From Citromicrobium sp. (GTDB lineage Bacteria; Pseudomonadota; Alphaproteobacteria; Sphingomonadales; Sphingomonadaceae), in the NCBI GenBank assembly GCA_002729695.1, contig PBYQ01000003.1, positions 124,001 through 188,000 of the forward strand: 64,000 nucleotides of DNA. The letters are read 5' to 3'. Shown piece by piece: positions 4,612 through 53,565 of this stretch. Both the position numbers and the translations under genes were made by a program. Numbering within the stretch: position 1 is the first letter of the stretch; each line of letters starts with the position of its first letter. The notes below the pieces were generated by a model. That model worked only from the letters and a program-made list of their open reading frames with translations, did not search any database and was not told where the DNA came from.

Positions 4612-4634
4612 CGGCTTTGGCGCAGCGAGGCCGC

Positions 4635-5036
4635 CTACTCCTCTTCTTCGTCCAGATCGCGCGCGACCTTGGGGTCGTTGAGCAGGCGTTCGATCCGGTC
4701 AGCTTCCTCGAAGCTTTCGTCGGCGCGGAATTGCAGCTTGGGCGCGAACTTGAGCCCCAGCCGCTTGGCAACCTCGCGCTGGAAGAAGGCGGTGTTGGTA
4801 CGCAGCGCCTTGAGAACCGCTGCCTCGTCTTCGCCCAGCAGCGGCTTCACGTAGACGCTGGCGTTCCTGAGGTCGGGCGTCATCCGCACCTCGGTGACGC
4901 TGACCGTGTGGGCAGACAGAGTCTCGTCGTGAACCTCTTGCCGGGCGAGCAGTTCGGACAGGATATGCCGCACCCGCTCGCCCACCTTGAGGACGCGGAC
5001 GGAGTGCTGTTCGGCGGAAAATTGCTGGCGGGCCAT
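4635..5036 (-). CDS. rbfA: ribosome-binding factor A
   Basis: This 133-residue protein contains the RbfA fold: [15 protein letters not shown] at the N-terminus, then the beta strands [36 protein letters not shown] and the [12 protein letters not shown] end. RbfA binds free 30S subunits and helps mature the 5' end of 16S rRNA, and is needed at low temperature in other bacteria. The acidic tail EEEE ends the protein. Its start overlaps the stop of the upstream DUF1697 gene (TGATG at 5034-5038), implying translational coupling. Confidence 0.94.
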
Positions 5037-5575: not shown

Positions 5576-5988
5576 CAGACGGGCGCATCCGGCACGGGCG
5601 TGGGGATCGCGGTGGAGGTCGCGCGGGCGAGCAGGCGGCCTTCGGAGTCGAACAGCTCGCCTTCGAGGAAGGCGACCTTGCGCCCGTGTTTGATCACGCG
5701 GCCCTTCGCGGTGATCCGTTCGAGCGGGACCATCCGCACGAAGCTGAGGTTCATATCGAGATTGAGCGGCAGCGCCTCGTTATCGGTGGAGGCCAGCAGC
5801 GCCGCACCCATCACCTCGTCGAGAAAACCCGCGATCAGCCCGCCCTGCACCGCCCCTCTGGGAGAGGCGAAGCTGGGCGGCGGATCATAGGTGAAGGTGA
5901 CCTCGCCCTTCTCCGCGTCCCAGCTCTGAAACTGCGAACCCATCAGCTGCGCCGATGGCGAGCGCTGGGTCTTGAAGAGTTCGGTCAT
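5575..5988 (-). CDS. PaaI-type hotdog-fold acyl-CoA thioesterase
   Basis: This 137-residue protein has the hotdog signature: SFASPRGAVQGGLIAGFLDEVMG with a helix-start Asp, then LPLNLDMNLSFVRMVPLERITAKGRVIKHGRKVAFLEGEL. It most likely hydrolyses an acyl-CoA thioester; the acyl group cannot be predicted from sequence. It overlaps the DUF1697 gene by one to four bases and follows the palindromic repeat after infB. Confidence 0.85.
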   Translation of the reverse strand: MTELFKTQRSPSAQLMGSQFQSWDAEKGEVTFTYDPPPSFASPRGAVQGGLIAGFLDEVMGAALLASTDNEALPLNLDMNLSFVRMVPLERITAKGRVIKHGRKVAFLEGELFDSEGRLLARATSTAIPTPVPDAPV

Positions 5989-5996
5989 AACAAGAC

Positions 5997-6131
5997 TCCT
6001 CCCCTCCCGCCTGCGGGAGGGGTAGCGAGACTTGGTCGCGCAAGCGACCTAGTCGCAGCGGGGTGGGCTCTTACGAGCTCCAACCATTGGATGGGCCCAC
6101 CCCCGACCCCTCCCGCGAGCGGGAGGGGAGT
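5997..6131. repeat. REPIN-like inverted palindrome pair between infB and thioesterase gene
   Basis: Two near-identical hairpins, CCCCTCCCGC-ct-GCGGGAGGGG (6001-6022) and CCCCTCCCGC-ga-GCGGGAGGGG (6107-6128), flank a shared GGGTGGGC / GCCCACCC pair. An extra hairpin, GGTCGC-gcaa-GCGACC, lies at 6034-6049. It fills the gap between infB and the downstream gene and could reduce read-through. Confidence 0.8.
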
Positions 6132-6136
6132 ATACG

Positions 6137-8692
<2,556 letters not shown>

Positions 8693-8743
8693 AAAACTCG
8701 TTTCTTCCTTCAGTCACATCGTCGCGAGATCGAGGGTCACCGC

Positions 8744-9439
8744 CTAGGCGGCCCCCGCTTCGCTCACGTCCGCAGACGCATTCCGGTATTGCAGCAGGCG
8801 CGTCAGGGCCTGGTCGACCCGCTCGGCCGCCGCATGATCGGCCAGCGCCAGATGGACGACATTGTCGCGGCCCAATGCCACAGACAGCGCCGCACGGTCC
8901 AGTGGCAAGCGCGTACCGCCCTCGCCCGAACCTTCGCGATCGCTTCCCACGCGCCACGCCTGGTCGAGCTTGGCAGCGCCGCCATCGCTCGCATCGGCTG
9001 CGTGATAGAGTGCCGCCAGCACTCCGCCGCGCGCATGTTCCGCAATGCGTTCCGACCCCAAGATAAGGTGTCCGCTCCGCATTTCGAGCCCCAGCCGGTC
9101 GGTAAGCGTGCGCAGCAGGCCCGCATCGATCTGCGCGGGCAGATCGTCGGGCACCCGCGGAGGCGCGGATTTGAATGCCCGGGCCAGCGCTCCCTTGAGC
9201 TTGCCCTTCGCAATCGCGGTTTCAAGCTCGGCGCGCGAGACGCCCAGCCAGGCGCCGCGACCCGGCGCTCGCGCGCGCGGATCGGGCAGCACGTCACCAT
9301 CAGGCGAAATCGCAAGACGAATCAGCTCGTCCCGCTCGCCGTGGCGTCCGGTCAGGATGCACTTGCGCTCCGGCGATTTCCCGCCGGGGCGCGTGCGCTC
9401 GGTTGTCGGCGTCAGAGACTCATTGTTCGGAGTCCGCAT
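8744..9439 (-). CDS. ylxR: YlxR (DUF448) protein with C-terminal L7Ae-like domain
   Basis: This 231-residue protein has two parts. Residues about 20-95 are the DUF448/YlxR domain with the signature ERKCILTGRHGERDELIRLA and GRGAWLGVSRAELE. Residues about 105-225 look like a ribosomal L7Ae/L30e RNA-binding fold (SGHLILGSERIAEHARGG, VHLALADHAAAERV). YlxR is a nucleic-acid-binding protein of the nusA-infB operon, reported in other bacteria to bind RNase P RNA or act as a nucleoid regulator. The start overlaps the last 20 bp of nusA, implying coupled translation. Confidence 0.9.
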   Translation of the reverse strand: MRTPNNESLTPTTERTRPGGKSPERKCILTGRHGERDELIRLAISPDGDVLPDPRARAPGRGAWLGVSRAELETAIAKGKLKGALARAFKSAPPRVPDDLPAQIDAGLLRTLTDRLGLEMRSGHLILGSERIAEHARGGVLAALYHAADASDGGAAKLDQAWRVGSDREGSGEGGTRLPLDRAALSVALGRDNVVHLALADHAAAERVDQALTRLLQYRNASADVSEAGAA

Positions 9440-11087
9440 CGGCGGCCTCCTGTTCGGTTGTCGGCGCGGCCTTGGCCGGTGCCGGTTCCTCGTCCTCGAA
9501 CCAGTGCGCGCGGGCAGCCATGATGATCTCGTTGCCCTGCTCTTCGGTCAGACCGTATTCGCCCAGCACACCGCCCTTGTCCTGCTCGCGCTGCGGACGA
9601 TCGCGCCGCATCGGCGGACCATCGGGATTGTTGTTGCGGCGGCGCGGAGCCTCGCGCTTCTTGGCGATCAGTTCGTCGGTGGCGAGATCGGCCACATCGT
9701 CGAGCGTCTTGAGTCCCGCCTTGCCCAGCGTGACCAGCATCGCTTCGGACAGGTGCGGCAGCTCGGCCAGCGCATCCTCGACGCCCAGTTCGCGGCGCGC
9801 CTCGCGATGCGCGGCTTCCTGCCGTTCGAGCGCTTCGGTCGCGCGGCTCTGCAGTTCCTCGGCCAGTTCCTCGTCGAAGCCTTCGATCATCGCCAGTTCG
9901 TCCAGCTGGACGTAGGCGACTTCTTCCAGCTCGGCGAAGCCTTCGGCGACGAGCAGCTGCGAGAGCGTTTCGTCGACGTCGAGCTCCTCCTCGAACATCT
10001 TGGAGCGAGCGGCGAATTCCTTGCTCTGCTTTTCCGAGGCTTCTTCCTCGGTCATGATGTCGATCTGGTTGCCGGTCAGCTGGCTGGCGAGACGCACGTT
10101 CTGGCCACGGCGACCGATCGCCAGCGAAAGCTGGTCGTCGGGCACCACGACTTCGATGCGGCTTTCGTCCTCATCCAGCACCACGCGGCTGACGGTGGCG
10201 GGCTGGAGCGCGTTGACGATGAAGGTCGCCTCTTCCTCGCTCCACGGGATGATGTCGATCTTCTCGCCCTGCAGTTCCTGCACGACGGCCTGAACGCGGC
10301 TGCCCTTCATGCCGACGCAGGCACCGACCGGGTCGATGCTGCTGTCGTGGCTGATCACGCCGATCTTGGCGCGGCTGCCCGGGTCGCGGGCGGCGGCCTT
10401 GATCTCGATGATGCCGTCGTAGATTTCGGGCACTTCCTGCGCGAACAGCTTCTTCATGAAGTCGGGATGCGCGCGGGTCAGGAAGATCTGCGGACCGCGG
10501 TTGTTGCGTTCGACCTTGCTGATCAGCGCACGGACACGCTCGCCGACACGCGCGGCTTCGCGCGGGATCTGCTGGTCGCGGCGGATCACGCCTTCGGCGC
10601 GGCCGAGGTTGACGATCACGTGGCCGAATTCGACCGACTTGATCACGCCGGTGATGATTTCGCCCGCGCGATCCTTGAACTCTTCGTACTGACGCTCACG
10701 CTCGGCATCGCGGACCTTCTGGAAAATCACCTGCTTGGCGCTCTGCGCGTCGATACGGCCGAGGTCGACCGGCGGCAGCGGATCGACGATGAAGTCGCCC
10801 AGCGATGCGCCGTCCTGCAGCTTCTGCGCCTGCTCCAGGTTGACCTGCTTGAAGTAGTCTTCGACCTCCTCGACCACTTCGACGACGCGCCACAGGCGCA
10901 GGTCGCCCGTCTGCGGGTCGAGCTTGGCGCGAATGTCGTTCTCCGCACCGTAACGGTTGCGGGCGGATTTCTGGATCGCCTCTTCCATCGCTTCGATGAC
11001 GATCGATTCGTCGATCATCTTTTCCGAAGCGACCGATTTCGCGATCGCGAGGAGCTCCGCACGGTTGGCGGAAATGGCAGTGGCCAT
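9420..11087 (-). CDS. nusA: transcription termination/antitermination protein NusA
   Basis: The 555-residue NusA binds RNA polymerase and controls pausing, termination and antitermination. The N-terminal domain holds ESIVIEAMEEAIQKSARNRYG. An S1 domain follows (ITGVIKSVEFGHVIVNLGRAEG), then two KH domains with GACVGMKGSRVQAVVQEL and AIGRRGQNVRLASQL. The acidic C-terminal part (DVDETLSQLLVAEGF, LGKAGLKTLDDVADL) has helix-hairpin-helix-like repeats. It overlaps ylxR by 20 bp and starts at the last base of rimP, so the three are one transcription unit. Confidence 0.98.
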   Translation of the reverse strand: MATAISANRAELLAIAKSVASEKMIDESIVIEAMEEAIQKSARNRYGAENDIRAKLDPQTGDLRLWRVVEVVEEVEDYFKQVNLEQAQKLQDGASLGDFIVDPLPPVDLGRIDAQSAKQVIFQKVRDAERERQYEEFKDRAGEIITGVIKSVEFGHVIVNLGRAEGVIRRDQQIPREAARVGERVRALISKVERNNRGPQIFLTRAHPDFMKKLFAQEVPEIYDGIIEIKAAARDPGSRAKIGVISHDSSIDPVGACVGMKGSRVQAVVQELQGEKIDIIPWSEEEATFIVNALQPATVSRVVLDEDESRIEVVVPDDQLSLAIGRRGQNVRLASQLTGNQIDIMTEEEASEKQSKEFAARSKMFEEELDVDETLSQLLVAEGFAELEEVAYVQLDELAMIEGFDEELAEELQSRATEALERQEAAHREARRELGVEDALAELPHLSEAMLVTLGKAGLKTLDDVADLATDELIAKKREAPRRRNNNPDGPPMRRDRPQREQDKGGVLGEYGLTEEQGNEIIMAARAHWFEDEEPAPAKAAPTTEQEAADADSEQ

Positions 11088-11653
11088 CAGTCGTCAGCCT
11101 TTTCTGGTTGGTCTTCTTGTACTTCCTCGGCACCCGTAGTGTCGAGCGGTCTGGTCGCGGCGATGAGCTCGTCGGTCAGGACGAGCTGCGCCGAATGGAT
11201 CTGGTCGCGCGGGAGTTCGACATCGCCCGCCTTGCGGTCGGTGATGGTGACGGTGTCGCCTTCTATGCCTTGCAGGACGCCGCGATAATTGCGCTGGCCG
11301 TCATAGCCTTTGGCCATCGAAATCTTCGCCTCATGCCCCGCCCAGTCGGAAAAATCCTTCGTGCGGGTCAGCGGGCGGTCGATGCCCGGCGAGCTGACTT
11401 CGAGGTGGTAGGCCCCTTCGATCAGCACATCGCCCTGCTCTTCAAGCGCGTCGATCTTCGCCGAAACGGCGCGGCTGAGTTCGGCGCATTGTTCGATCAC
11501 CAGCTGCCCGGTCGCCGGGTCTTCCGCCATGATCTGTAACGCCTGCGTGCCGTCGCCGGCTTCGGACGGCATCATCTTCACGCGCACGAGATCGAATCCC
11601 AGGGCCTTTGCTTCGGGTTCGATAATCTCGGTCAGTCGCGCGATATCCGCCAT
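11087..11653 (-). CDS. rimP: ribosome maturation factor RimP
   Basis: This 188-residue protein is needed for 30S maturation. It carries ARLTEIIEPEAKALGFDLVRVK at the start, the CAELSRAVSAKIDA helix, and the hallmark YHLEVSSPGIDRPLTRTKDF. The ATG at 11653 is chosen because GGAG lies six bases before it. An upstream in-frame ATG would add 40 unconserved residues. It is the first gene of the rimP-nusA-ylxR-infB operon. The 160 bp upstream of it contain no other gene. Confidence 0.95.
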   Translation of the reverse strand: MADIARLTEIIEPEAKALGFDLVRVKMMPSEAGDGTQALQIMAEDPATGQLVIEQCAELSRAVSAKIDALEEQGDVLIEGAYHLEVSSPGIDRPLTRTKDFSDWAGHEAKISMAKGYDGQRNYRGVLQGIEGDTVTITDRKAGDVELPRDQIHSAQLVLTDELIAATRPLDTTGAEEVQEDQPEKADD

Positions 11654-11817
11654 TCGTTCTCCATTTCGTCTTCGATCTGCATGGCAATGCGGTTTGGCGC
11701 CGGTGCCTTTCGGCCCGGCCCAACACGGTGCCAGCAATGTCGGGATGAAGGGCAGATAGGCGAGCATCGCCAAAAATGCAACGCGCTTTGGCGCGCCATC
11801 GGCGATTTTGTGCCCGG

Positions 11818-12429
11818 TCAGGTGCCTTTCGGCTTGAACCAGGGCTCGTCCGTCCGGTCAATCGCGAGCGGTTGGGCAAAGGGAGCGCACAGCCGATATG
11901 CTTCCTGCGGCGTTCCCTCCAGCCATTGCGCCCAGTTGTCGCGCGGGAGGATCACCGGCATCCGGTTATGGATCGGCGCGACCTGCGGATTGGCCTCGGT
12001 CATGATCATGCTGAACGCCTCGCCCCACTCGTCGGTCTGCCGCCAGATACCGGCGGTCGCAAACAGCGGTTGATCGGGCACGGAAAACCACGTCCGGGTC
12101 ATCGCGCCCCTTTCGCCCTCGGCTTCGGCGAAGCGGCTGACCGGGATCAGGCAGCGACGTTCTTCGAAGGAATAGCGCCAGAAGAAGCTCTTGAGCTTGT
12201 CGGTCCGCGTGTTGTTGACCGGCTTGGGCTTGAGCGGCTGGCCCTTCGCGCCCGTCCGCTGGAGCGGGAAGCCCCACACCATCGGGCGCACCATGCCCTG
12301 CGCAACCACTGGCGCAGGGTAACCGGGGTAGACCTCTTCTGCGGTGTTCGCGCCGAAATCCTGTGCGACCGCATCGAAGAAATCGGCAATCTCGGTATGC
12401 GAGCTCCTGATCTTGTAGAGATTGCACAT
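11818..12429 (-). CDS. SOS response-associated peptidase (SRAP / YedK-HMCES family)
   Basis: This 203-residue protein has the SRAP catalytic set: Cys2 exposed after Met removal (MCNLY), the NTRTDKLKSFFWR segment, the RCLIPVSRFAEAE strand, the IWRQTDEWGEAFSMIMTEAN segment and the IHNRMPVILP motif with its His. SRAP proteins form a thiazolidine crosslink with abasic sites in single-stranded DNA and shield them. It is the last gene of an apparent bdhA-M28-SRAP unit, 12 bp after the peptidase. Confidence 0.92.
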   Translation of the reverse strand: MCNLYKIRSSHTEIADFFDAVAQDFGANTAEEVYPGYPAPVVAQGMVRPMVWGFPLQRTGAKGQPLKPKPVNNTRTDKLKSFFWRYSFEERRCLIPVSRFAEAEGERGAMTRTWFSVPDQPLFATAGIWRQTDEWGEAFSMIMTEANPQVAPIHNRMPVILPRDNWAQWLEGTPQEAYRLCAPFAQPLAIDRTDEPWFKPKGT

Positions 12430-12441
12430 GCGCGAGAGGCG

Positions 12442-13914
12442 TTACTCGCCGCTGCCCGGATAGGTTGCCAGATTGCCGAAGTAGCGCAGCAAATCGGCAT
12501 GCAGCAGCGTGTCCTGCGCCGCGCCGCCGAGTTCGAGCCCGGAGGCCGTATCGTCATTGGCGTGATGATACGGGCCCTGCATGAAGCTTTCGAATGCCCC
12601 CGTGTCCGCCAGCGCGCTGCTGACCAGAACCGTGGGCACCCCGTCGCGCAGCAATATCCACCCGTCCTGCCGGGGAAGGAAGGCATCCTGCATGTCGGAA
12701 GGCACGACCTCGCGGCCCTGCACCCGCGCAACCTCCGATATCCCGTAATCGAGCTGCGTCTTGCCCGCCCCCAGAACCACGACCGGCGTGCCGCGCGGCG
12801 CGATCGCCATGGTATCGAGATTGAAGGCCGCCGCAATCGTCGGCAACGGCACCGGCGGGTCGGCGACGAAGGCTTTCGCGCCCAGCAGGCCGAGCTCTTC
12901 GGAACTGGTCGCAAGGACGATCACATCGCGGTCGAGCGGGCCGTCGCGCAGCGCAATCCGCACCGCCTCGATCATCACCGCAAGCCCGCTGGCGTTGTCG
13001 ACCGCGCCGTTGCACAGCCGGTCCTTCGCGTCGGCTGGCCCGCACGCATCGCCCAGGTGATCCCAGTGCGCCAGCACCAGAACGGCACCCGCGCCCGGCA
13101 CCTTGCCCGGCATCCGGCCGATCACATTGGCAGTCTCGATCCGGTCGACCTGCTGGGCGATGCTGGCTTTCAGGATCGTGTCGTAGGCGATCACACCCAG
13201 CCCATCGGGGTGGCGCGACGCATTCTGGCCGACCACATCCATCAGCTGCTCGCTGTCCTGCGGGGTAAGAAGCATGACCGCGGGGCCGGAGGTATCGCTC
13301 GCCAGTCTCCAGCGGCCGCGCGAAATCATGGCCGCCGTCTTCTGATATTCCTCCTCGTCTGCGGTCATGATCAGAAGGACCTTGGGTCCTGCCGCCTCGA
13401 ATTGCGGAAACAGCTTGAAGAGAGACGATGCAGGCAACGCCAGCGCGCGGTTGACCAGCGATCGCGGCTGCAGTTCCTTCAGGTCCGGGTCCAGCCCGAC
13501 GATCGGCACATCGGCAAGCCGCGCCTCGTCCTCACCCGGTTGAACGGCAATCAGACCTTGCGAGAGCGACACGCTGCGCGTTCCACGCGTAATCGTCGCG
13601 GTGCTTTCGCCCGGTTTGCCGAGGGGTGCGCGGCGGACGAGGGTGAAATCCTGCGTCCAGTCGCCCTCGCCCACGCCCGGTTGCAGGCCGATGTCCGAAT
13701 AGCGGTCTATCAGCCAGCTACGCGTCTTCGCTTCGCCTTCGGAGCCGGGGAAGCGGCCGCCGAAACCGTCGTCCGAGAGCGTGGTGATGTCGCGCGCCAA
13801 GGCCGTTTCTACCGCGTCGAGCGAAGGCGGCGGCGGGTTGGACGGCACGCTCTGCACGCTTGCGCATGCGCTCAACAGCAGCGCAGCAGCGCCTGCCGTA
13901 ATGCCCCTGATCAT
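12442..13914 (-). CDS. M28 family zinc aminopeptidase, lipoprotein
   Basis: This 490-residue protein starts with a lipoprotein signal peptide with lipobox LSAC (Cys17). The catalytic domain has the M28 zinc-ligand segments VLAHWDHLGD, CNGAVDNASGLAVMIE and ATSSEELGLLGAKAFV, followed by AFNLDTMAI. A PA-like insert (about 110-230) precedes it. It probably acts as a periplasmic or outer-membrane-attached aminopeptidase. The ATG at 13914 gives the signal peptide; the same frame stays open further upstream only as read-through of antisense to bdhA. It lies 23 bp after bdhA. Confidence 0.92.
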   Translation of the reverse strand: MIRGITAGAAALLLSACASVQSVPSNPPPPSLDAVETALARDITTLSDDGFGGRFPGSEGEAKTRSWLIDRYSDIGLQPGVGEGDWTQDFTLVRRAPLGKPGESTATITRGTRSVSLSQGLIAVQPGEDEARLADVPIVGLDPDLKELQPRSLVNRALALPASSLFKLFPQFEAAGPKVLLIMTADEEEYQKTAAMISRGRWRLASDTSGPAVMLLTPQDSEQLMDVVGQNASRHPDGLGVIAYDTILKASIAQQVDRIETANVIGRMPGKVPGAGAVLVLAHWDHLGDACGPADAKDRLCNGAVDNASGLAVMIEAVRIALRDGPLDRDVIVLATSSEELGLLGAKAFVADPPVPLPTIAAAFNLDTMAIAPRGTPVVVLGAGKTQLDYGISEVARVQGREVVPSDMQDAFLPRQDGWILLRDGVPTVLVSSALADTGAFESFMQGPYHHANDDTASGLELGGAAQDTLLHADLLRYFGNLATYPGSGE

Positions 13915-13937
13915 TGTCCCCACCTGTTCTTTTCCTC

Positions 13938-14696
13938 TCAGTCGGCGGTCCAGCCGCCATCGACGCTCCAGTTCGCGCCATTCACGTTCGCCATCGAATC
14001 GCGGCACAGGAAGACGGCCATCTCGCCGATATCCTCGGGCTGGACGAACTTCTTGGTCGGCTGCTTGGCCAGCAGAACCTCGTCGATCACTTCCTCGCGG
14101 CTCATCCCGCGCGCCTTCATCGTGTCGGGGATCTGGTTTTCGACCAGCGGCGTCCACACATAGCCGGGGCTGATGCAGTTGACCGTGACCCCGGTGGTCG
14201 CGACTTCGAGCGCGACCGTCTTGGTCAGGCCCGCGATGCCATGCTTCGCAGCGACGTAGGCCGATTTGTAGGGCGAGGCCACCAGCGAGTGCGCGCTGGC
14301 GGTGTTGATGATCCGGCCCCAGCCGCGTTCCTTCATGTGCGGCACGGCCAGCCGGATGGTATGGAACGCCGCCGACAGGTTGAGCGCGATGATCTTGTCC
14401 CATTTGTCGACCGGAAACTCGTCGACCGGAGCAACGTGCTGCATCCCGGCATTGTTGACGAGGATGTCGATCCCGCCCGCGTCGGCCATCATCCCTTCGA
14501 TCGCGGACACATCGGTCAGGTCGGCCCCGGAATACTCCGCTCCGCCGAGTTCCTCGCGCAGTTTCTCGATCTCCGCCTCGTCGCCGAAACCGTTGAGGAC
14601 GATCCGCGCGCCCTCGCCGTGCAGCGCCCGCGCGACCGCCAGACCGATGCCCGAGGTCGAACCGGTGACAAGAGCCTTCTTACCTTCGAGGAACAT
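13938..14696 (-). CDS. bdhA: 3-hydroxybutyrate dehydrogenase (SDR family)
   Basis: This 252-residue short-chain dehydrogenase starts EGKKALVTGSTSGIGLAVA (NAD-binding). It has ILVNNAGMQHVAPVDEFP, NTASAHSLVASPYKSAYVAAKHG with catalytic Ser, Tyr and Lys, and CISPGYVWTPLVENQIPD near the end. The GMQHVAP.E.FP and LVENQIPD segments are characteristic of D-3-hydroxybutyrate dehydrogenases. It interconverts 3-hydroxybutyrate and acetoacetate, matching polyhydroxyalkanoate turnover (see the PhaZ-like gene at 56524). Confidence 0.9.
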   Translation of the reverse strand: MFLEGKKALVTGSTSGIGLAVARALHGEGARIVLNGFGDEAEIEKLREELGGAEYSGADLTDVSAIEGMMADAGGIDILVNNAGMQHVAPVDEFPVDKWDKIIALNLSAAFHTIRLAVPHMKERGWGRIINTASAHSLVASPYKSAYVAAKHGIAGLTKTVALEVATTGVTVNCISPGYVWTPLVENQIPDTMKARGMSREEVIDEVLLAKQPTKKFVQPEDIGEMAVFLCRDSMANVNGANWSVDGGWTAD

Positions 14697-14830
14697 CGCT
14701 AGCCTTTCGGAGATTAACCAAGCCGTGTGGGCCCAATCGCTGCCCGAGCGGGGTGGTTCCGTGCGAGAGTGCGCAATGCAAGCCTTTTTCTGCAAGGTGC
14801 ACGGGGGAGACAACAAGGGGAACCGGTTCA

Positions 14831-15709
14831 ATGCGGCTCAATCCATTCAACACCGACAATATCGATGTGCGCGGCGGCAGCAGCCGCTTTCCCGGCGGCG
14901 GCGCGGGCCAGCTGGGGTGCGGCACGCTGATTATCGCGGGCATCGTCTCGCTGCTGTTCGGCACCGATTTCGGCCAGACGGTCGCCGTAATCGATACGGT
15001 CAACCAGACGACCGGCAGCGGCCAGGTCAGCAACGCCGACGGGCAGATGAGCGAGCAGGAGCTGTGCACCAGCAGCGACTACGCGACCGAGGCGTGCAAC
15101 GCGCTGCAATCGCTCAACGCCACCTGGCAGCCCGAGTTCGAGCGGGCGAACATCGAGTTCCAGCAGCCCTTCCTGCACCTTTACAGCGGCGGCGTGAACA
15201 CGCGCGGCTGCGGCAGCGCGACGTCTGCTGCCGGGCCGTTCTACTGCCCGCGCGACGGTGGCATCTATATCGACACCAGCTTCTACGATCTGATGAAGCG
15301 CGATCTGGGCGCGGGCGGCGATTTCGCGCGGCTGTATGTCGTGGCGCATGAATACGGGCACCATATCCAGAACCTGACCGGCCTCGCCGACCAAGTCGCC
15401 AGCGCCCAGCAAAGGGACCCGCAGAACGCCAACCGGCTGCAGGTGCGCATGGAATTGCAGGCCGATTGCTACGCCGGTGTGTGGGCGGGCAAGAACAAGG
15501 ACCGGGTCGAGCCGGGCGACTTCGAGGAAGGCATGCAGGCCGCCGCCGCGATCGGGGACGATGCCATTTCGGAACGCATGGGAGGTAGGGTCTCGCCCGA
15601 AAGCTTCACCCACGGTACCAGCGAACAGCGTATGCAGGCATTGCGGCTGGGCATGAACAGCGGCAACGATACGATATGCGATCGCTATTTCGCGCCCGAA
15701 TCGTTCTAG
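14831..15709 (+). CDS. ypfJ: YpfJ-type neutral zinc metallopeptidase
   Basis: This 292-residue protein of the zinc_peptidase family (PF04228) starts MRLNPFNTDNIDVR, followed by a Gly-rich stretch and one membrane-spanning segment (GTLIIAGIVSLLFG). The metallopeptidase core has the HEYGHHIQNLTG zinc motif and the MELQADCYAGVWA segment carrying the third ligand. The family is conserved but its substrates are not known. It is divergent from bdhA and followed 35 bp later by the ClpP-like gene. Confidence 0.93.
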   Translation: MRLNPFNTDNIDVRGGSSRFPGGGAGQLGCGTLIIAGIVSLLFGTDFGQTVAVIDTVNQTTGSGQVSNADGQMSEQELCTSSDYATEACNALQSLNATWQPEFERANIEFQQPFLHLYSGGVNTRGCGSATSAAGPFYCPRDGGIYIDTSFYDLMKRDLGAGGDFARLYVVAHEYGHHIQNLTGLADQVASAQQRDPQNANRLQVRMELQADCYAGVWAGKNKDRVEPGDFEEGMQAAAAIGDDAISERMGGRVSPESFTHGTSEQRMQALRLGMNSGNDTICDRYFAPESF

Positions 15710-15744
15710 GCGCATCGTTTTAGGGGGGCTGGAACAGGCAGGCG

Positions 15745-17385
15745 ATGGACTTCATCCGCAACCTTTTCACGCTGTTCCAGCGTCTGCAGGACATCATCCG
15801 CGAGGGGCAGAAGCGCGGCGACGTGCCCGGCATGGCGATGGCTCTGGTCCGCGAAGTGCGGGGGAGCGACCGGGACGCCGACGGCCAGGGCGACGGCCCG
15901 GCAGTCTATCAGGGCAGGCGCGCCCAGGCCGACCAGGGCACGCCCTCCGCCGCGTCGCGGGCGACCGCGCGCAACAAGGCCGCGCGCGATACCGACTTGC
16001 CCGAGCCCGCCGTCTACCGCAGCCCCGCAGGTTCGGACTTCATGGCCGAACTCGAACCGGCCCGCGCGCCCGCGCGCAACGCCGACGATCCGTCGGAGAA
16101 ACTGCCCGAGCCTGCTTCTGCCGGGCCGTTGCAGCGCGAGGACTACGACTACAAGCCCGCTTCGGCGGATCCCGCGAAAATTCCCGAGGTGCCCGAGCCG
16201 GTTCGTGCCGAGGAGGCCGCACAACCGACGCCCGAACCGGAACCAGAGCCCGATGCACAGCAGGATGTGGAGGCACCGGCAGCGCAGGAGCCGGCCGAGG
16301 CCGCAACCGTAGCCTCCGCCGTGAACTGGGACCACGACGACCAGCCTGCGCAGGATGTCGCCGCGCCTGCCCCCGAAGACGAGCCCGCTCCCGCACCGGC
16401 CGAGACTGCGCCTGTCGTCGCTGAAGGTGGCGAACCGCCCAGCAAAGACGACAAGAACGACGACTGGTTCGATCTGGACGACTGGCAGGGGACTGCGCTG
16501 AAGGTCGCCGGTGTCGGCGCAGCGACCGCCGCCGGCGCGATGGCAATCAAGGACCGCTTCTTCGACCACGACGAAGACGATAGCGACGACGGGGAAGACA
16601 CCCGCGCGATCCCGCTCGGCAAAGGCTCCGACGCGACGATTGACGACACCAAAACAAATGGCGCCGGGTGGACGGCAGCGGCCGCAATGGCCGCGCCGGT
16701 CGCTGCGGCAGCGCTGCCCACCGCCGGGAAGGATGCCGATGCGCCGGCCCGGTCGACCCCTCCCGAACAGTCGCGGCGGCCACATCAGGTCGAGATCATC
16801 CCCGCCGATCCGAACAACCCGGCGACCCAGCCCGCCTCGCAGACGCTCGCGAACCCCGGCATCCGCCTCTACGGCACGCTAGACGCCGCGATGTATGCCG
16901 AGTTTACCGAGCGGCTTTCCGAGCAGGAGCCCGGCGGACCGATCGTCATCGCGCTGACCACGATGGAGGGCGACCCCGAAATCGCGCGCAGCATGGCCGA
17001 CGATATTCGCCTGCTGCGCGATCGCGGACGGCGCGAGATCATCTTCCTCGGCAAGACGGCGGTCTATGGCGCGGGCGTGCTGTTCATGGCCGCCTTCCCC
17101 GTCAGCCACCGCTACCTCACCCGCGCAACCAAGGTGCTGGTGACGGAGAACAAGCGCGCGCAGCCGATCCAGCTTTCGGGCGGATCGCTGCGCAGCGTCG
17201 CCAGCCAGCTCGAACACGTCCAGCGCGAAATCCAGCGCGAGATCGAGCAGGAGGACGAGGATTACCGCGCGATCTCCGAAGGGTCGAACGTCAGCGTGCA
17301 GGAGCTGCGCGAAAAGGCCCCGAACGAGTGGTTCATCACTGCGAGCGAGGCCAAGGCGATGGGGCTGATCGCAGAGGTCGTCTAA
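15745..17385 (+). CDS. large protein with disordered linker and ClpP-like C-terminal domain, catalytic residues apparently lost
   Basis: This 546-residue protein has three parts. Residues 1-45 form a short helical head (MDFIRNLFTLFQRLQDIIREG). Residues about 46-370 are low-complexity Pro/Ala/Glu/Asp, with two Ala-rich hydrophobic patches (about 250-268 and 308-327). Residues about 371-546 resemble the ClpP/crotonase fold: GIRLYGTLD, GGPIVIALTTMEGDPEIARSMADDI, FLGKTAVYGAGVLFMAAF and the ClpP-like end WFITASEAKAMGLIAEVV. Where ClpP has its nucleophilic Ser (ASMG) this protein has AVYGAG. Where ClpP has its His (IHQP) it has VTEN. It is probably a non-proteolytic relative. It is likely co-transcribed with ypfJ. 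Confidence 0.72.
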   Translation: MDFIRNLFTLFQRLQDIIREGQKRGDVPGMAMALVREVRGSDRDADGQGDGPAVYQGRRAQADQGTPSAASRATARNKAARDTDLPEPAVYRSPAGSDFMAELEPARAPARNADDPSEKLPEPASAGPLQREDYDYKPASADPAKIPEVPEPVRAEEAAQPTPEPEPEPDAQQDVEAPAAQEPAEAATVASAVNWDHDDQPAQDVAAPAPEDEPAPAPAETAPVVAEGGEPPSKDDKNDDWFDLDDWQGTALKVAGVGAATAAGAMAIKDRFFDHDEDDSDDGEDTRAIPLGKGSDATIDDTKTNGAGWTAAAAMAAPVAAAALPTAGKDADAPARSTPPEQSRRPHQVEIIPADPNNPATQPASQTLANPGIRLYGTLDAAMYAEFTERLSEQEPGGPIVIALTTMEGDPEIARSMADDIRLLRDRGRREIIFLGKTAVYGAGVLFMAAFPVSHRYLTRATKVLVTENKRAQPIQLSGGSLRSVASQLEHVQREIQREIEQEDEDYRAISEGSNVSVQELREKAPNEWFITASEAKAMGLIAEVV

Positions 17386-37789: not shown

Positions 37790-39454
37790 TCACACCCCCT
37801 CCAGCAACCGATCCGCCTGCGCGCGCGCTTCGGGCGTCACCTCGGCGCCCGACAGCATGCGGGCGATCTCTTCCTGCCTGCCCTCGGCGTCGAGCAATTC
37901 GATCGAGGTCTTGGTGACCGTCCCGCTGCTCGCCTTGGCGATGCGGTAGTGGACGCGGCCGCGGGCGGCGACCTGGGGTGAATGCGTCACCACCAGCACC
38001 TGGCCGTCGCTCGCCAATCGCGCCAGCCGTTCGCCGATGGCGGAGGCGACCGCGCCGCCCACGCCGCGGTCGATCTCGTCGAAGATCATCGTCGCCGCGC
38101 CGCCTTGCTCGGCCAGCGCCACTTTCAGCGCGAGGATGAAGCGTGAGAGTTCGCCGCCGCTGGCGATCTTGTTCAATGGCGCGAAATCCGCGCCGGGGTT
38201 GGTCGCGATCAGGAATTCGACCGAATCCATCCCGCTTGCGCCCCATTTTTCCTGCGGCAGCGGCTGAACGTCGGTGCGGAAGCGTGCGGCATCGAGCTTG
38301 AGCGGCGCAAGCTCCGCCGCGACGGCTGCGTCGAGCTTCTTCGCCCCAGCCTTGCGCGCCTTGCGCAGCCGCGTCGCCGCACCCTCATAGGCATCGTAGG
38401 CCTCGCGCTCGGCCAGCCGCAGCGCGTCGAGCTGGGCTTCGCCGCCCTCGATCGCGTCGAGCTTGGCGCGAAATTCGCGAATCTTGTCGGGCAATTCATC
38501 CACTTCGCAGCGGTGCTTGCGAGCGAGCGCGCGCAGGTCGAACAGCCGCGTCTCGGCAGCGTCCAGCGCGGCGGGATCGTGGACCAGCGCCTCGGCAGCT
38601 TCTTCCAGCTTCTCCTCCGCCTCGGTCGCTTCGAGGATCGCGCGGTCGAGCGCGCCGAGCGCTTCGGCAAGCAGCTTGTGCTCGCCCGCAATCCGGTCGA
38701 GCCGCCGCGCGGCGGTGCGCAGTTCGCTCAGCGGCGAGTCCGAACCTTCCCAGATGTGGCGCAGTTCTTCGAGATCGCCCGACAGACGCTCACCCTTCTG
38801 CATCGAGGCACGCGCTTCGGCGAGGCGCGCTTCCTCGCCCGCCTGCGGTTCGATCTCGATCAGTTCGGCAAGATGCGCCAGCAGCAGGTCCTGCTCGGCG
38901 CTGGCGGCGTCGATCGCATCGCGCGCTTCCTCCAGCGCTTCGGCAGCGCGGCGCCATTCGCGCCAGTTGCGCGCGACCCTGGCGGTGTCGGCATCGGCGA
39001 AACGGTCGAGCAGCTGGCGGTGCCCGCGCGGGTTCACCAGCCCGCGATCGTCGTGCTGGCCGTGCAGTTCGACCAGGATCGGGGCAAGGTTGCGCAGCAG
39101 GCCGACGCTGGCCGACTGATCGTTGGCGAAGGCCTTCGATCCACCGTCCGCCTTCACCTGCCGCCGCAGAATCAGCGGCTCGCCCGGCTCGATCTCGATC
39201 CCTGCCTCCTCCAGCGCTTCGGAGAGCGCAGGCGGAAAGCTCGCAAATTCGAAATTGGCGGTGACGCTGGCCTGCTTTGCGCCGCTGCGTACCAGACTCG
39301 TCTCGGCACGATTGCCGAGCACCAGGCCCAGCGCATCGAGCAGGATCGATTTGCCCGCGCCGGTCTCGCCCGTAAGCACGCCCAGCCCTCGACCGAAATC
39401 GAGATCGAGCGCTTCGATCAAAACGACATTGCGGACGGCAAGTTGGGTCAGCAT
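37790..39454 (-). CDS. recN: DNA repair protein RecN
   Basis: This 554-residue SMC-like ATPase acts in double-strand-break repair. It has the Walker A motif LTGETGAGKSILLDAL, a long coiled coil with a reversal, and C-terminal ABC signature elements IASGGELSRFILALK and TMIFDEIDRGVGG, ending with HSPQVAARGRVHYRIAK. The ATG at 39454 matches the usual MLTQLAVRNVVLIE start. bamD is upstream on the same strand, an arrangement common in alphaproteobacteria. Confidence 0.97.
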   Translation of the reverse strand: MLTQLAVRNVVLIEALDLDFGRGLGVLTGETGAGKSILLDALGLVLGNRAETSLVRSGAKQASVTANFEFASFPPALSEALEEAGIEIEPGEPLILRRQVKADGGSKAFANDQSASVGLLRNLAPILVELHGQHDDRGLVNPRGHRQLLDRFADADTARVARNWREWRRAAEALEEARDAIDAASAEQDLLLAHLAELIEIEPQAGEEARLAEARASMQKGERLSGDLEELRHIWEGSDSPLSELRTAARRLDRIAGEHKLLAEALGALDRAILEATEAEEKLEEAAEALVHDPAALDAAETRLFDLRALARKHRCEVDELPDKIREFRAKLDAIEGGEAQLDALRLAEREAYDAYEGAATRLRKARKAGAKKLDAAVAAELAPLKLDAARFRTDVQPLPQEKWGASGMDSVEFLIATNPGADFAPLNKIASGGELSRFILALKVALAEQGGAATMIFDEIDRGVGGAVASAIGERLARLASDGQVLVVTHSPQVAARGRVHYRIAKASSGTVTKTSIELLDAEGRQEEIARMLSGAEVTPEARAQADRLLEGV

Positions 39455-39571
39455 CGCAGGGCGCAGATTAGCGTGCGCACGCGCCCGCGTCACCGCCGGG
39501 CATACGCCTTACCGCTCGTGGATGTGCATAAACGCCGCGAAAGCACGCATGCGGCGGCTTTGCGGGGGGGG

Positions 39572-47700: not shown

Positions 47701-48465
47701 ATGACTAGGCGCGCCGACAATCGGGAGGAACGCCTGCCCGTGCAGCAGGTGATCGCACGAGGGGGCGAGCTGCCCGACTTCACCCCCGTCCCCCGCCAGT
47801 GCGAGCGCCACGATGGCTGGACCGAGGATCGCCAGCGCCGCTTCATCGCCGCGCTCGCCGACACAGGCTCCGTCCACGCCGCGTGCAGGGCGGTCAACAT
47901 GAGCCAGGCCGGCGCCTACCACCTGCGCCGCCAGCCGGGCGCGCAGAGCTTTCGCGCCGCATGGCAGGCGGCGATCGACCTTGGCGTGCAGCGGATCGAG
48001 GATGTCGCGATGGACCGCGCGCTCAACGGCGTCGACGTGCCCGTCTACTCCTACGGCAAGCTGGTCGGCACGCGGACCACCTATAACGACCGCCTGCTGA
48101 TGTTCATGCTGCGCAACCGCGCGCCCGATCGGTTTGCGGAAGGGCGCGCAAAAGGCCTCAACGCGGTCGGCCAGATGGAGCTGAAGCGGCTCAAGAAGCA
48201 ATGGCGCGAGGAGTACGAGCGCGAGCGCGCGCAGAGCGGTGAGGCCCGCGTATACGAAGCGCTCGACGCCAAGCTGCAAGCGCTCCACCAGCGCCGCCTC
48301 GACTCCATGAGCCCCCGCGCCCGCGCGGCCTGGGACGCCTTCAAGGCCATCGAGGCCGAGGACAAGGCCGCAGGCTACCGCTGGTGGGAGGACCCGGAGC
48401 ACCCGCTGTATAACGAGGGGGAGGATGGCGATAGCACCTTGGGAGAGCCAAGTACAAAATCTTAA
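47701..48465 (+). CDS. phage-terminase-small-subunit-like helix-turn-helix protein
   Basis: This 254-residue basic protein has a helix-turn-helix near residues 50-85 (RRFIAALADTGSVHAACRAVNMSQAGAYHLRRQPG), like terminase small subunits and gpNu1-type DNA-packaging proteins. The long charged C-terminal half has no recognised domain. No other phage genes are near. Similar stand-alone proteins occur in sphingomonads, so it may be domesticated. An earlier ribosome-binding site is not obvious. A palindrome pair and the AT-rich gene follow on the opposite strand. Confidence 0.7.
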   Translation: MTRRADNREERLPVQQVIARGGELPDFTPVPRQCERHDGWTEDRQRRFIAALADTGSVHAACRAVNMSQAGAYHLRRQPGAQSFRAAWQAAIDLGVQRIEDVAMDRALNGVDVPVYSYGKLVGTRTTYNDRLLMFMLRNRAPDRFAEGRAKGLNAVGQMELKRLKKQWREEYERERAQSGEARVYEALDAKLQALHQRRLDSMSPRARAAWDAFKAIEAEDKAAGYRWWEDPEHPLYNEGEDGDSTLGEPSTKS

Positions 48466-48511
48466 ACATTATGTGAAGATTAAACGACTATACGCCAGCC
48501 AAGTTTAAGAT
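48459..48511. repeat. 9-bp inverted repeat at the edge of the AT-rich gene
   Basis: ATCTTAAAC (48459-48467) and GTTTAAGAT (48503-48511) are perfect inverted copies 35 bp apart, at the point where base composition falls from G+C-rich to AT-rich. They could form the terminator of the 48529-51612 gene or mark the boundary of an insertion. Confidence 0.5.
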
Positions 48512-48528
48512 GAAGCAAGTATGTGCAT

Positions 48529-51500
48529 TTACCCAATTAATTCCTGCTTTTCCATTCTCTGCAAGTGTTTGGAGATCTGCTGTTCGGTGGGGCGCTTTGT
48601 GGCATAGGCACGTTTTGCACGGGTATACGCCACAAGCCGCTTAAGCTTCGCGCGGTCCCCCATTCTCACTACGTCATGCTTTAACTCATCCATAACCCCG
48701 TGAAGCATCATCCAAAGATAAATGCTACCAGGTTCTGCGGCAGCCAAGAGGTGTTCGGCCGCATTCTCCCAACCCTCTGCCCTTGCGCCAATCAAGTGAT
48801 AAAAATTGACAACTTCGAGAAAGCCAACCTCCACCGAGCGGAAGGCTCTCTCGGCGAAAATACCCCCAAGCTTTTGGAAACCCAGCGTCTGCCTAGTCTT
48901 CAATGAAACTGCTCTAGAAAGGGATAGTACTACTGCCGAAATGGCCTCATGAGAATCTGGCTCTAGATCCTTCGCAGCCTTGTCAAAGTCAATAAATGCC
49001 ATCGCGCCCCAGCGGTAAAGCTTACTTTTGGCCAACTCAGGCGCAAATAACGTTCCTATCTGAAACGCACACAATTCACACCACAAGAGCAACTCGTACG
49101 CCTCGACCTTCGTATCTCTTCCTACATCATTTACGTTCTTCAAAACCTCAGATAAATTCTGCTTTATTATGACGAGAGCATACTCAAGATCCATGAATTT
49201 TCTAATTGTCACCTTTTGGTTTGCGGTACGTGCCTCGGCAAGCAATGAAGTCTTCAAAGAGTCAATCCGCTTCGGCTCTTCTGGGCCATCAGAAATTGCT
49301 TTGGCAATCGGGGCCCATGTCTGCTCCTCTTCCTTCGCATCGACCGCCCATAGAGCGTCCGAAAGAGGGTCAAACTCCTTCCTCACAAGTTGTCTTTCAA
49401 AATCGCTAAGTGCGGCACCTAGGTCTCGGCTTAATGCAGCCATTATTCGACTATCGTTTGGCTTGAGCGCTGTGATTACATCCAACACATCTTCTACCGC
49501 AGTATAATTTTGGTCTGCCAGAAAACCTTCCAGACCGCTATCATCATCTTTCAATGCAATTCCAAGAGCGAACGAGTAAAAGAACCCATATCTAAAGTAG
49601 ATTGAATTTCCGTTCCGACCAAAAATCTTCGCTTCGACAATTTCATCAAGTATCTGATTAGAATCGAAGCCAAGAAGCGTTCGCGCCTTGTAATCATCGC
49701 AGAATTCAATCCAGCTTCTAACAGAAAAAGAACCCTCCTTCTCGTCGTACATTTTTCTGGCAAAGCTTGCGATTAGATCTATCTTATTTTGGTAATTGAA
49801 TGAACCCGTGAAGCTATCACTCGGCTTACGCAAACTATCTAGTAGAAACTTTTGTAGTATGTCCACCCTGTTTAGCGGGATGAAACTACCGTCTACGAAA
49901 AGGATCTTCATATACATGACGACATTACTTGGGGTAAGCGGGATGCAAAGTCCAAGAAGGTCATCATAAACCTTTTGGGTGACAGACGAAGCCAACTCAA
50001 AATCGTCAGTGTCAAAAAAAGACTCTGCCAATTCGCGAATCTGAGCCCGCGATAGAGTCCAGAGGTAAAGTTCCTCAAAATCTAGCCCGACTTCGCGCAG
50101 ACTCATCCCAGCAGAGGGCACCAAGCCGCGATTGGTCGCAATCGCAACGACCCGAAGCACATCATCAATCTTCCCCAATTCCGAGATTAATTTTCGGTCT
50201 CGCTCGAGATTGACGTTATCCAACAACACAGTGACTGGCCCATCCTGTCCGCGAGCGCTCTTAAATATTTCTTCTTGTAACTTTTTCTTGTAATTAGGCA
50301 TTCTCCGAGCATCGCCCAGAAAATAAGCTCCGCCCCGCATTTTTATTTCAGTACCCAGTCTTCCTAATAATGTGCTTCCGCCATACTCTGATCGAGACTC
50401 GATTATATAAGATTTTCTGTCCTCGATTATCTCTTGGACCGTGATCGAATCTCTTTCGTGATCGAATTCCAATACCGAGGATTGACCGCGACGAGACAGT
50501 CTCGGCTCAGTGTAGATTGGTTTCCCAGACGGCGCAGCCAAGAGGTTGGTTTGCCAACCACCGGAGAGACGATCAGATCTGAGAATCTCGCTTAACGAAG
50601 TTGCTTCCAAACCAGCGACCGCAGTAGATGTTCCTCTCTTCTTTCGCGTGATGAAGAATCTACCCGCGTAATCAGGATCATCTGGAAATAGTGAAGTATC
50701 CGCCGTCCATATCTCCCTGGGAGTTTCATGGTATCGTATCGGCGATATTCGCAAATCATTACCAGTTAACTTCCCAAAGTTGGCCACATTCGGCCATTGC
50801 GAACCTTGATAGAGTGCTCCACTAGCGACAGTAACCGATTGGCCGCTCGAGCCGTGCGCGATCTCGACTTCGTTTTCATGCAGGTGACCATGGAGAAGTA
50901 GGTCAAAGTTATCATTCAGGGTTGCTTTCACACCCGAACGTTCCACCTCAGAAAGCCATGTAATCGGGTGATGCATCAGCGCCAATCTGAGGAGATCGGG
51001 CCTGTTATCCGCTCCAATCGCTTCGTCGATGCATCGCTGCGCGAGAAGAAGGCGACCCTGGTCTTGATCGTCGAATGACAATGCCGCCGAATTTAGCCCC
51101 CAGACCTCCAGTAAAAATCCATCTTCCTCGAAGTTTTCAATTTTGTATGTAGTTGTATTCGTCGGGAACTTGCGACCAGGGAAATATTCTTCGTACCAAG
51201 TTTTGAATGCATTTTGGCGTTTTTCGATGTGGTAGACCGATTTACCATTGAAAAGGTCGTCAATAGCGCGACGATTTTGAAATTCTCGACTCAGTCCATT
51301 ACTCTGTGATCTATCGACATCATGGTTGCCTGGGACTACTAGTAGGCGAGATCTTTTAAGTTCCAAGGCAGAAAGTAGCTTGTCGAAGAAGGAGCTCGCC
51401 TCCGCGTATTCTGATCGATTTCCCGTCTTAGCTACATCGCCAGTGAAAAAGACAAAATCGGGTTTTCCAAATCGCAAAGTTAGGTTTGGTAGAGACTTCA

Positions 51501-51612
51501 ATAAGGCACTTACTAGTCGATTTTGATCGTACGATCCTAATCCAGAAAAGTGAACATCAGAAATATGAAGCCAGCTTAGAGGTTTCTTATCGACAGCCAC
51601 GATCTCTCCCAC
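48529..51612 (-). CDS. calcineurin-type phosphoesterase fused to a STAND-like P-loop region; candidate defence protein
   Basis: This is a 1027-residue protein. Residues 13-300 form a metallophosphoesterase with every metal motif: SDVHF (Asp19, His21), TGDVAKTG (Asp59), PGNHDVD (Asn97, His98), MHHP (His214/215) and HGHLH (His243, His245). Residues about 400-500 resemble a STAND/NACHT core: IIESRSEYGGSTLLGRLG in the Walker A place but without the Lys, LLDNVN as Walker B, then VVAIATNRG. The remaining ~500 residues are helical without a recognised domain. The DNA is AT-rich (27 of 60 G+C at 49201-49260). GTG at 51612 or, with a better ribosome-binding site (GGGAGAG), GTG at 51600. It begins 20 bp after the lepA stop. 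The role is inferred, not known. Confidence 0.8.
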   Translation of the reverse strand: MGEIVAVDKKPLSWLHISDVHFSGLGSYDQNRLVSALLKSLPNLTLRFGKPDFVFFTGDVAKTGNRSEYAEASSFFDKLLSALELKRSRLLVVPGNHDVDRSQSNGLSREFQNRRAIDDLFNGKSVYHIEKRQNAFKTWYEEYFPGRKFPTNTTTYKIENFEEDGFLLEVWGLNSAALSFDDQDQGRLLLAQRCIDEAIGADNRPDLLRLALMHHPITWLSEVERSGVKATLNDNFDLLLHGHLHENEVEIAHGSSGQSVTVASGALYQGSQWPNVANFGKLTGNDLRISPIRYHETPREIWTADTSLFPDDPDYAGRFFITRKKRGTSTAVAGLEATSLSEILRSDRLSGGWQTNLLAAPSGKPIYTEPRLSRRGQSSVLEFDHERDSITVQEIIEDRKSYIIESRSEYGGSTLLGRLGTEIKMRGGAYFLGDARRMPNYKKKLQEEIFKSARGQDGPVTVLLDNVNLERDRKLISELGKIDDVLRVVAIATNRGLVPSAGMSLREVGLDFEELYLWTLSRAQIRELAESFFDTDDFELASSVTQKVYDDLLGLCIPLTPSNVVMYMKILFVDGSFIPLNRVDILQKFLLDSLRKPSDSFTGSFNYQNKIDLIASFARKMYDEKEGSFSVRSWIEFCDDYKARTLLGFDSNQILDEIVEAKIFGRNGNSIYFRYGFFYSFALGIALKDDDSGLEGFLADQNYTAVEDVLDVITALKPNDSRIMAALSRDLGAALSDFERQLVRKEFDPLSDALWAVDAKEEEQTWAPIAKAISDGPEEPKRIDSLKTSLLAEARTANQKVTIRKFMDLEYALVIIKQNLSEVLKNVNDVGRDTKVEAYELLLWCELCAFQIGTLFAPELAKSKLYRWGAMAFIDFDKAAKDLEPDSHEAISAVVLSLSRAVSLKTRQTLGFQKLGGIFAERAFRSVEVGFLEVVNFYHLIGARAEGWENAAEHLLAAAEPGSIYLWMMLHGVMDELKHDVVRMGDRAKLKRLVAYTRAKRAYATKRPTEQQISKHLQRMEKQELIG

Positions 51613-51632
51613 CCAAATCTACTGGAAGAGAC

Positions 51633-53468
<1,836 letters not shown>

Positions 53469-53565
53469 TACCGCGCCGCAATAGACGCGGGGCGGGCGTC
53501 TGTCAGCATGTTTGAGGGTATGCACGGACTGTCTCGTGCGGGACAGCGGAACTTGCCCCAAGGGA

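Follow-up and report, generated by a model that had tools for sequence, protein, structure and literature searches.

A candidate anti-phage gene that joins a phosphoesterase to a lysine-less STAND core, in a variable slot behind lepA of Citromicrobium sp.

The window analysed here is a 64,000-nucleotide stretch of the Citromicrobium sp. assembly GCA_002729695.1 (contig PBYQ01000003.1, positions 124,001 to 188,000), and directly behind its lepA gene lies a single gene for a 1027-residue protein with an N-terminal calcineurin-like phosphoesterase, a predicted STAND/NACHT-like core without the Walker A lysine, and a long helical tail. We read this gene as probably a single-gene anti-phage STAND immune receptor, a lysine-less variant of the DS-8/PDC-S60-like kind. 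The features of the locus, in window coordinates, are as follows.

48529..51612, minus strand: whole gene, 1027-aa metallophosphoesterase-STAND protein (open reading frame, GTG start)
50728..51579, minus strand: calcineurin-like phosphoesterase, putative effector, residues 12-295 (PF00149, structural matches)
49933..50445, minus strand: NACHT-like P-loop domain, residues 390-560 (model of residues 340-740, NLRC4 Z 17.0)
50371..50412, minus strand: lysine-less P-loop, residues 401-414, SYIIESRSEYGGST (model and alignment)
50278..50298, minus strand: motif PNYKKKL, residues 439-445 (alignment)
50215..50235, minus strand: Walker B VTVLLDN, residues 460-466 (model and alignment)
49543..49794, minus strand: winged-helix-like segment, marginal PF24406 nSTAND_NTPase4, residues 607-690 (PF24406 score)
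48547..49542, minus strand: helical C-terminal region, residues 691-1022, putative sensor (DSSP of the model for the helices)
48466..51632, no strand: variable slot flanked by the 254-aa gene and lepA (no alignment in any of 9 same-genus genomes, against 8-9 of 9 in the adjoining bins)
51633..53561, minus strand: lepA, conserved right boundary (longest open reading frame; the true start is probably further inside it)
47701..48465, plus strand: conserved 254-aa gene, left boundary (no Pfam match at E ≤ 0.01)

The open reading frame occupies exactly 48529-51612, runs uninterrupted for 1027 codons on the same strand as lepA and starts 20 nt past the lepA stop codon; an alternative GTG start at codon 5 (51600), with GGGAGAG upstream, is possible. 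The 1-kb bins from 49 to 52 kb have a G+C content of 0.443-0.506 against 0.57-0.71 in the remaining bins of the window, and G+C at third codon positions (GC3) is 0.47 in the gene and 0.88 in lepA. An earlier description made from the letters alone (the sequence-only reading) had proposed one intact gene of foreign composition with a whole metallophosphoesterase domain, and it was right on each count: PF00149 matches residues 15-246 (E-value 2e-12, 48.4 bits, over the curated cut-off of 21.5), and the metal motifs required of calcineurin-like phosphoesterases are all present (D19-x-H21, G58-D59, G95-N96-H97-D98, H214-H215 and G242-H243-x-H245) and invariant across an alignment of six proteins, the window protein included. 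In the full-length model the domain matches chain B of 9a6c, an integrative model of YydD-YydB, with Z 27.4, Rv0805 with Z 20.5 and SMPDL3A with Z 17.2 (VIA), whilst profile searches match it to DS9_1 'anti-phage phosphoesterase' (3.8e-19) and to a PADLOC model labelled 'Effector, Endonuclease' (5.4e-27). Its best matches among crystal structures, Rv0805 and GpdQ (Z 19-20.5), would suit a signalling or stress regulator that responds to a cellular cue by breaking down a host cyclic nucleotide with its phosphoesterase, much as Rv0805-like enzymes do; we hold this to be quite improbable, as the gene has an accessory distribution and foreign composition, shares its slot with restriction, retron, DRT, NACHT and SIR2 cargo, and belongs to a group in which the effector is swapped with SIR2 and DUF4062. 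Related phosphoesterase domains are also fused to other partners: nSTAND6 in one protein (L102, by Pfam) and, read by eye, a SUMF1-like partner in L040 and L041 and an AAA/NB-ARC-like core in L035.

Beyond the phosphoesterase, the full-length model has a strand at 401-406, a helix at 412-425 and a strand at 460-465, with the P-loop lying between the first strand and the helix, and is helical from residue 522 on save for a hairpin at 664-673. The P-loop sequence, SYIIESRSEYGGSTLL, read as RSEYGGST around Walker A, departs from the consensus Gx4GK[ST]: it has S406-x4-G411-G412-S413, with G412 at the lysine position and S406 at that of the first glycine, G411 and S413 being retained. Walker B (hhhhD) is intact as V460-T461-V462-L463-L464-D465 on strand 460-465. 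Arg418, in the helix after the P-loop, was considered as a stand-in for the lysine and ruled out, because an arginine is also found there in the lysine-bearing relatives L017, L128 and L129. The VIA matches of the full model were all phosphoesterases, so residues 340-740 were folded alone, giving a predicted local distance difference test (pLDDT) score of 77.5 and a predicted TM-score (pTM) of 0.66. This core model matches NLRC4 with Z 17.0 over 327 residues at a root-mean-square deviation (rmsd) of 7.5, followed by NLRP7 (15.5), NLRP3 (14.6) and NOD2 (13.7), and the top 18 rows of the Foldseek list are taken up by NACHT receptors (NLRC4, NLRP1/3/7/9/14, NOD2) and, in row 18, by the phage-sensing Avs4 (8dgf), with E-values from 5e-10 for NLRC4 to 9e-8 for Avs4. 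PF24406 is marginal near residues 636-681, at 26.2 bits in the whole protein and 27.7 for residues 330-1027 alone, the gathering cut-off being 27. On these models the core is STAND/NACHT-like, a P-loop Rossmann core followed by a winged helix, despite the loss of the Walker A lysine. The layout of effector, STAND core and long helical tail put forward by the sequence-only reading is supported by both models and by the NACHT fold matches, and the structure prediction that it had called for in residues 330-1027 yields the NACHT-like core in the model of 340-740.

The window protein shares its lysine-less P-loop with a small group of homologues. Three were found among 99 pattern matches in genome contigs: one in the metagenome-assembled genome of Erythrobacter sp. 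MSM4 (L117, 72% identity in the P-loop region, 63-81% by piece), one in Rhizobium sp. R711 (L118, 37% identity to the window protein) and one in Microvirga terricola (L119, 33% identity over residues 322-1024). At the lysine position the window protein, the MSM4 copy, L095 and the copy in genome G399 have glycine, the Rhizobium protein alanine, and the Microvirga and Chryseobacterium proteins leucine. A tree of 18 rows was built with the P-loop columns included, the fragments L117b, L037b, L018 and L032 having been dropped beforehand; ten rows have the lysine, three have R, R or S, and the five lysine-less rows form one group (support 92/93; 94% of 200 bootstrap trees), within which the phosphoesterase pair (98/95) and the SIR2 pair (99/95) are recovered, the Chryseobacterium row having a long branch and the least sure placement. 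Exchange of effectors on a shared core, a common trait of STAND receptors, is seen here too. The phosphoesterase is carried by the window, Erythrobacter and Rhizobium proteins; in the Microvirga protein SIR2_2 (PF13289, E-value 1.4e-19) replaces it on the same core; L095, from another genus of the window's family, has an N-terminus called SIR2 by homology to the Microvirga protein (39% identity over nearly full length, and 30% to the window protein over 354-1026); and the most distant member, the Chryseobacterium protein (L122), carries DUF4062, named in its record. This last protein is found from the Rhizobium homologue, at about 20% identity and E 1e-13, and a search with the window protein misses it. 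The same lysine-less motif therefore occurs, with three effectors, in homologues down to 29% identity (about 20% for L122), and the loss of the lysine is, by alignment and tree, a trait of the clade. A further motif, PNY[KR]KKL, is present in L117, L118, L119 and L037 and as PNYSAKL in L095, and is absent from L122 and the aligned lysine-bearing relatives; in the alphaproteobacterial members it suggests a rebuilt pocket, an association that counts once as these form one clade. The Rhizobium gene has E2-ThiF, JAB and helicase-PLD genes as neighbours, and the Chryseobacterium gene, on a plasmid of Chryseobacterium sp. SNU WT5 (3407-16008), lies amid type I restriction genes in a locus which also holds a nucleotidyltransferase, an S-4TM putative pore-forming effector and a DUF4145 gene.

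The place of the gene is itself highly variable. Across 13 consecutive 250-bp bins (48501-51750) none of the nine other same-genus genomes aligns over at least half of a bin, the bins just outside align in eight and nine of them, and all nine hold something else between the 254-aa gene and lepA. We surveyed the lepA-downstream DNA of 54 usable related genomes and the window (55 loci; L068 was dropped as too short), nine of the loci being same-genus and most others coming from the top of a lepA identity list of 149 family genomes, so that the survey represents the closer members of the family. A low-GC block begins at the lepA stop in 35 of the 55 loci (median 2.9 kb, 1.7-4.4 kb), and the 254-aa gene stands on the far side in 35, 30 of them with a low-GC block, and was not found in the other 20. 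An empty lepA site was sought and none was found: in all 35 loci with the 254-aa gene, lepA is at least 2.4 kb away. The 254-aa gene or a low-GC block defined 40 slots with 109 open reading frames of at least 130 aa, and 15 of the 40 share no cargo protein with any other. At E ≤ 1e-10, PADLOC models match cargo in 21 of 31 slots scanned (39 proteins), in 10 of 11 where one to three proteins per slot were scanned and in 11 of 20 where a single protein was, this one being picked by eye and not the longest in 7 of the 20, which makes the rate a rough one; the slots outside the scan were L061, L066, L073, L076, L084, L087, L094, L095 and that of the window, whose protein matches PDC-S60. As a control, one of ten flanking genes also matched, mad3 on 37790-39493 (2e-27), which we presume may be RecN and which we count against specificity.

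The matched cargoes include a retron, DRT2, type II and IIG restriction, NsnA/GmrSD, OLD-like ATPases, SIR2 and a PifA-like KAP protein, and one slot without a PADLOC match at this threshold (L049) has a NACHT N-terminal domain (NNH3) by Pfam, so the expectation of alternative defence genes at the same lepA-downstream place in relatives is borne out. The same core occupies the slot as the window gene, as its broken MSM4 orthologue and as a SIR2 version in genome G894 (L131), and in genome G1081 (L130) the slot holds a more distant phosphoesterase-STAND protein with GRT for GKT, the 254-aa gene of that locus being recognisable from residue 24 to 92 alone, at 43%. Comparison of the window and MSM4 copies gives pN 0.23 and pS 0.84 (proportions of changed nonsynonymous and synonymous sites over 1013 codons, the synonymous sites being saturated) and pS in the neighbouring lepA is 0.40; that cargoes are exchanged rather than descended with the locus is only suggestive from this comparison, which is weakened by the codon bias of lepA (GC3 0.88) lowering its pS. 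There is no tRNA in the window, an att site and an integrase were looked for and not found there, the repeats framing the insert are unconvincing (short two-copy families and one distant 22-nt inverted pair), and the 20 loci displayed have no common junction sequence; exchange would presumably proceed by recombination in the flanks. A search of open-access literature found nothing on point for a lepA hotspot, and by title none of the 12 papers listed, out of 105 on Sphingomonadales hotspots, concerns a lepA site; on these searches it appears to be a new compact defence slot.

Several other contents of these slots are recorded here in their own right. Scanned low-GC cargoes that no PADLOC model matches at 1e-10 (L070, L072, L079, L081, L083, L092, L099, L062 and a 295-aa protein in L047) are candidate new systems. 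A gene of ~290 aa, with HNH_2 in L048, stands near the far end of 8 of the 40 slots (L048, L062, L067, L072, L078, L083, L092 and L094, that in L072 being a short piece), and L045 holds two N6-methyltransferase pieces at 6507-10065, one with a specificity-like part, and between them an open reading frame that reads by eye as transposase-like.

The gene is also rare. The whole protein has no match at 1e-10 in any of the nine other same-genus genomes, and a set of 98 genomes gives three matches, its own genome and two that are N-terminal only. Five of 385 class genomes match the whole protein, whilst the core profile matches 2 of 385 class and 5 of 396 order genomes (own genome included in each), and of the four non-self matches in the order only that in G894 has the lysine-less motif; the DS-8 profile matches 17 of 398 phylum genomes, none of them over its cut-off. 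Such an accessory distribution led us to reject a housekeeping role, and the conserved, syntenic homologues that would have spoken for one were sought in same-genus genomes and are absent from all nine. In collections of mobile DNA, the phages gave one N-terminal match only, viral contigs searched with the core gave no relatives, and plasmids searched with the C-terminal part gave three distant records, the Chryseobacterium plasmid not among them. Some relatives are nonetheless located on plasmids and proviruses and some of the slot cargo is restriction-modification, as might be expected of a defence against plasmids or other mobile DNA and not phages; this we regard as very improbable indeed, the nearest tested relative, DS-8, being reported to act on phages (PMC13092281). 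Two of the more distant records deserve mention: genome G1122 (L128, 7392-10573) has a DS-8-like phosphoesterase-STAND gene split over two frames and lying between a repressor-like helix-turn-helix gene and genes that look, by eye, like phage late genes, and this gene is probably prophage cargo, and the 'Klebsiella grimontii' plasmid pNY3A (L010, CP079755.1; G+C 0.318) is 95.5% identical over 4.1 kb to an IMG/VR provirus contig (L100; G+C 0.307) and may be a contaminated or chimeric record, a gene name such as YueH suggesting Bacillus-type DNA.

If the gene is an immune receptor, it would be held in an autoinhibited state until its helical C-terminal half senses a phage product, upon which the NACHT-like core would change shape and oligomerise. 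Assembly would bring the N-terminal dimetal phosphoesterases together and switch them on, and these would degrade a nucleotide, a cyclic nucleotide or nucleic acid and so stop phage growth or the infected cell. Of this account, the analysis shows the domain make-up, the predicted fold, the loss of the lysine, the exchange of effectors and the turnover of slot contents, and the sensing, oligomerisation, catalysis with its substrate, and defence we infer from DS-8, Avs and NLR proteins. Because the Walker A lysine and first glycine are replaced whilst the strand-loop-helix, the Ser/Thr, Walker B and the winged helix are kept, the core may either hold its nucleotide in another way, perhaps via the basic PNYKKKL motif, or act as a nucleotide-independent scaffold. 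The gene would then be one of many interchangeable cargoes of the defence-rich slot behind lepA.

A number of results weigh against this account. We know of no phage or enzyme test of any lysine-less member. The full-length model is of moderate confidence (pLDDT 70, pTM 0.43), residues 330-1027 match no Pfam family besides PF24406, and in the Foldseek list for the core ORC/Cdc6-type AAA+ ATPases appear from row 20 onward; TM-scores to the NACHT rows are low (0.34-0.47 by query length) and rmsd is 7-11 Å, as would be expected if the domains are set differently, and for these reasons the fold class is surer than the family or the detail. The slots are not devoted to defence alone: L073, L076 and L080 were read by eye as copper or other functions (G+C 0.56-0.63), the L080 protein, by eye copper resistance, having no PADLOC match, and in 10 of the 31 scanned slots the scanned proteins have no defence-model match at 1e-10, some of these not being defence. 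The relatives raise a further doubt, since frame changes and a stop disrupt the MSM4 copy and that of G399 lies in two short frames, leaving two of the four phosphoesterase-type clade members seen not intact. Replacing the Walker A lysine is reported to abolish immunity in Avs5 (PaAvs5-1; PMC12931631), and a NACHT ATPase residue is reported as essential in DS-8 (PMC13092281), so that a lysine-less core might be dead.

These broken copies, together with the essential residues of the tested STAND relatives, are what one would expect of a decaying or dead defence gene, once DS-8-like, that has lost its Walker A lysine and is heading towards a pseudogene. We think this unlikely: the window open reading frame is intact throughout, the lysine-less motif is common to distant homologues with three different effectors, and pN lies far below pS, which indicates that the window and MSM4 proteins have been under constraint, the MSM4 copy itself being broken. 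The word 'degenerate', applied to the core by the sequence-only reading, is thus apt for the P-loop and inapt as a statement of simple decay, since the distant homologues have the same motif.

An anti-phage receptor of this kind would matter for how STAND proteins signal. In the common view, STAND receptors switch when nucleotide is exchanged at a P-loop that depends on its lysine. With a clade that lacks this lysine in nature, conserves the lack and still carries several effectors, the need for nucleotide could be tested directly, with lysine-keeping natural controls, and the swap of phosphoesterase and SIR2 on one core offers a clear approach to the substrate of the phosphoesterase effector. 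It is conceivable, and we advance it tentatively, that the clade signals without a Walker A lysine, as a pseudo-NTPase scaffold or through a rebuilt pocket, with at least three effectors and uncoupled from the P-loop chemistry of DS-8 and Avs5, and that two versions of it rotate through the lepA slot in one family. The clade is of interest because the Walker A lysine is reported to be essential in Avs5 (PMC12931631). The slot, for its part, would give a fixed address for small undescribed defence systems in the family.

The nearest comparison is DS-8 (DefensePredictor, NCBIfam NF053861), likewise a single protein with an N-terminal metallophosphatase and a NACHT core. DS-8 was tested in 2026 and reported to protect E. 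coli from phages, and mutation of either its phosphoesterase or its NACHT domain abolishes protection (PMC13092281). The DS-8 profile is co-linear with the window protein in two stretches, 1-262 and 605-686 (of 994), and scores 157.3 bits, well below its curated cut-off of 790. Cores of the DS-8 type in L015, L016, L017 and L019 keep the Walker A lysine, unlike the window protein with its glycine, and differ at the N-terminus, which reads by eye as TIR. PDC-S60, a candidate label in PADLOC, is co-linear with both halves (4-251 and 355-817 of 1027, the last 210 positions unmatched; E 1.5e-49 at full length and 1.5e-11 with only the C-terminal 698 aa; the profile has no curated cut-off); no paper naming it was found in the open-access literature searched, and we know of no tested function for it. 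The architecture was accordingly not the undescribed one first supposed, a phosphoesterase-NACHT system having been tested and PDC-S60 matching both halves. What appears new is the conserved lysine-less clade with three effectors, and the compact slot behind lepA, the DS-8/PDC-S60-like architecture itself being known; a search of open-access titles and the starts of abstracts for lysine-less STAND receptors found nothing on point.

Avs proteins have a sensor for a phage protein such as terminase or portal. The PADLOC library holds models named Avs, none of which is among the three PADLOC matches of the window protein at E ≤ 1, but Avs4 is among the fold matches of the core, so that the gene may or may not be an Avs. 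Avs5, a SIR2-STAND protein, shares the effector-STAND-sensor plan, and SIR2 is the alternative effector on the window gene's own core; its nSTAND3 core is reported to have an intact GPAGSGKT loop with an essential lysine, unlike the window protein, which has a marginal PF24406 match and no lysine (PMC12931631). DUF4062, the third effector on the lysine-less core, is that of Swarozyc and the DUF4062 NADases; bacterial Swarozyc has an auxiliary domain, NACHT adjoins DUF4062 in human TEP1, NWD1, NWD2 and NPHP3, and the available part of that account makes no mention of a lysine-less core (PMC13174449). The slot, finally, resembles the core defence hotspots described in Pseudomonas aeruginosa and E. 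coli in being a fixed chromosomal place with changing defence cargo (PMC10250203, PMC10121019), and differs from them in being compact (median 2.9 kb), in having lepA and the 254-aa gene as its borders and in belonging to one alphaproteobacterial family.

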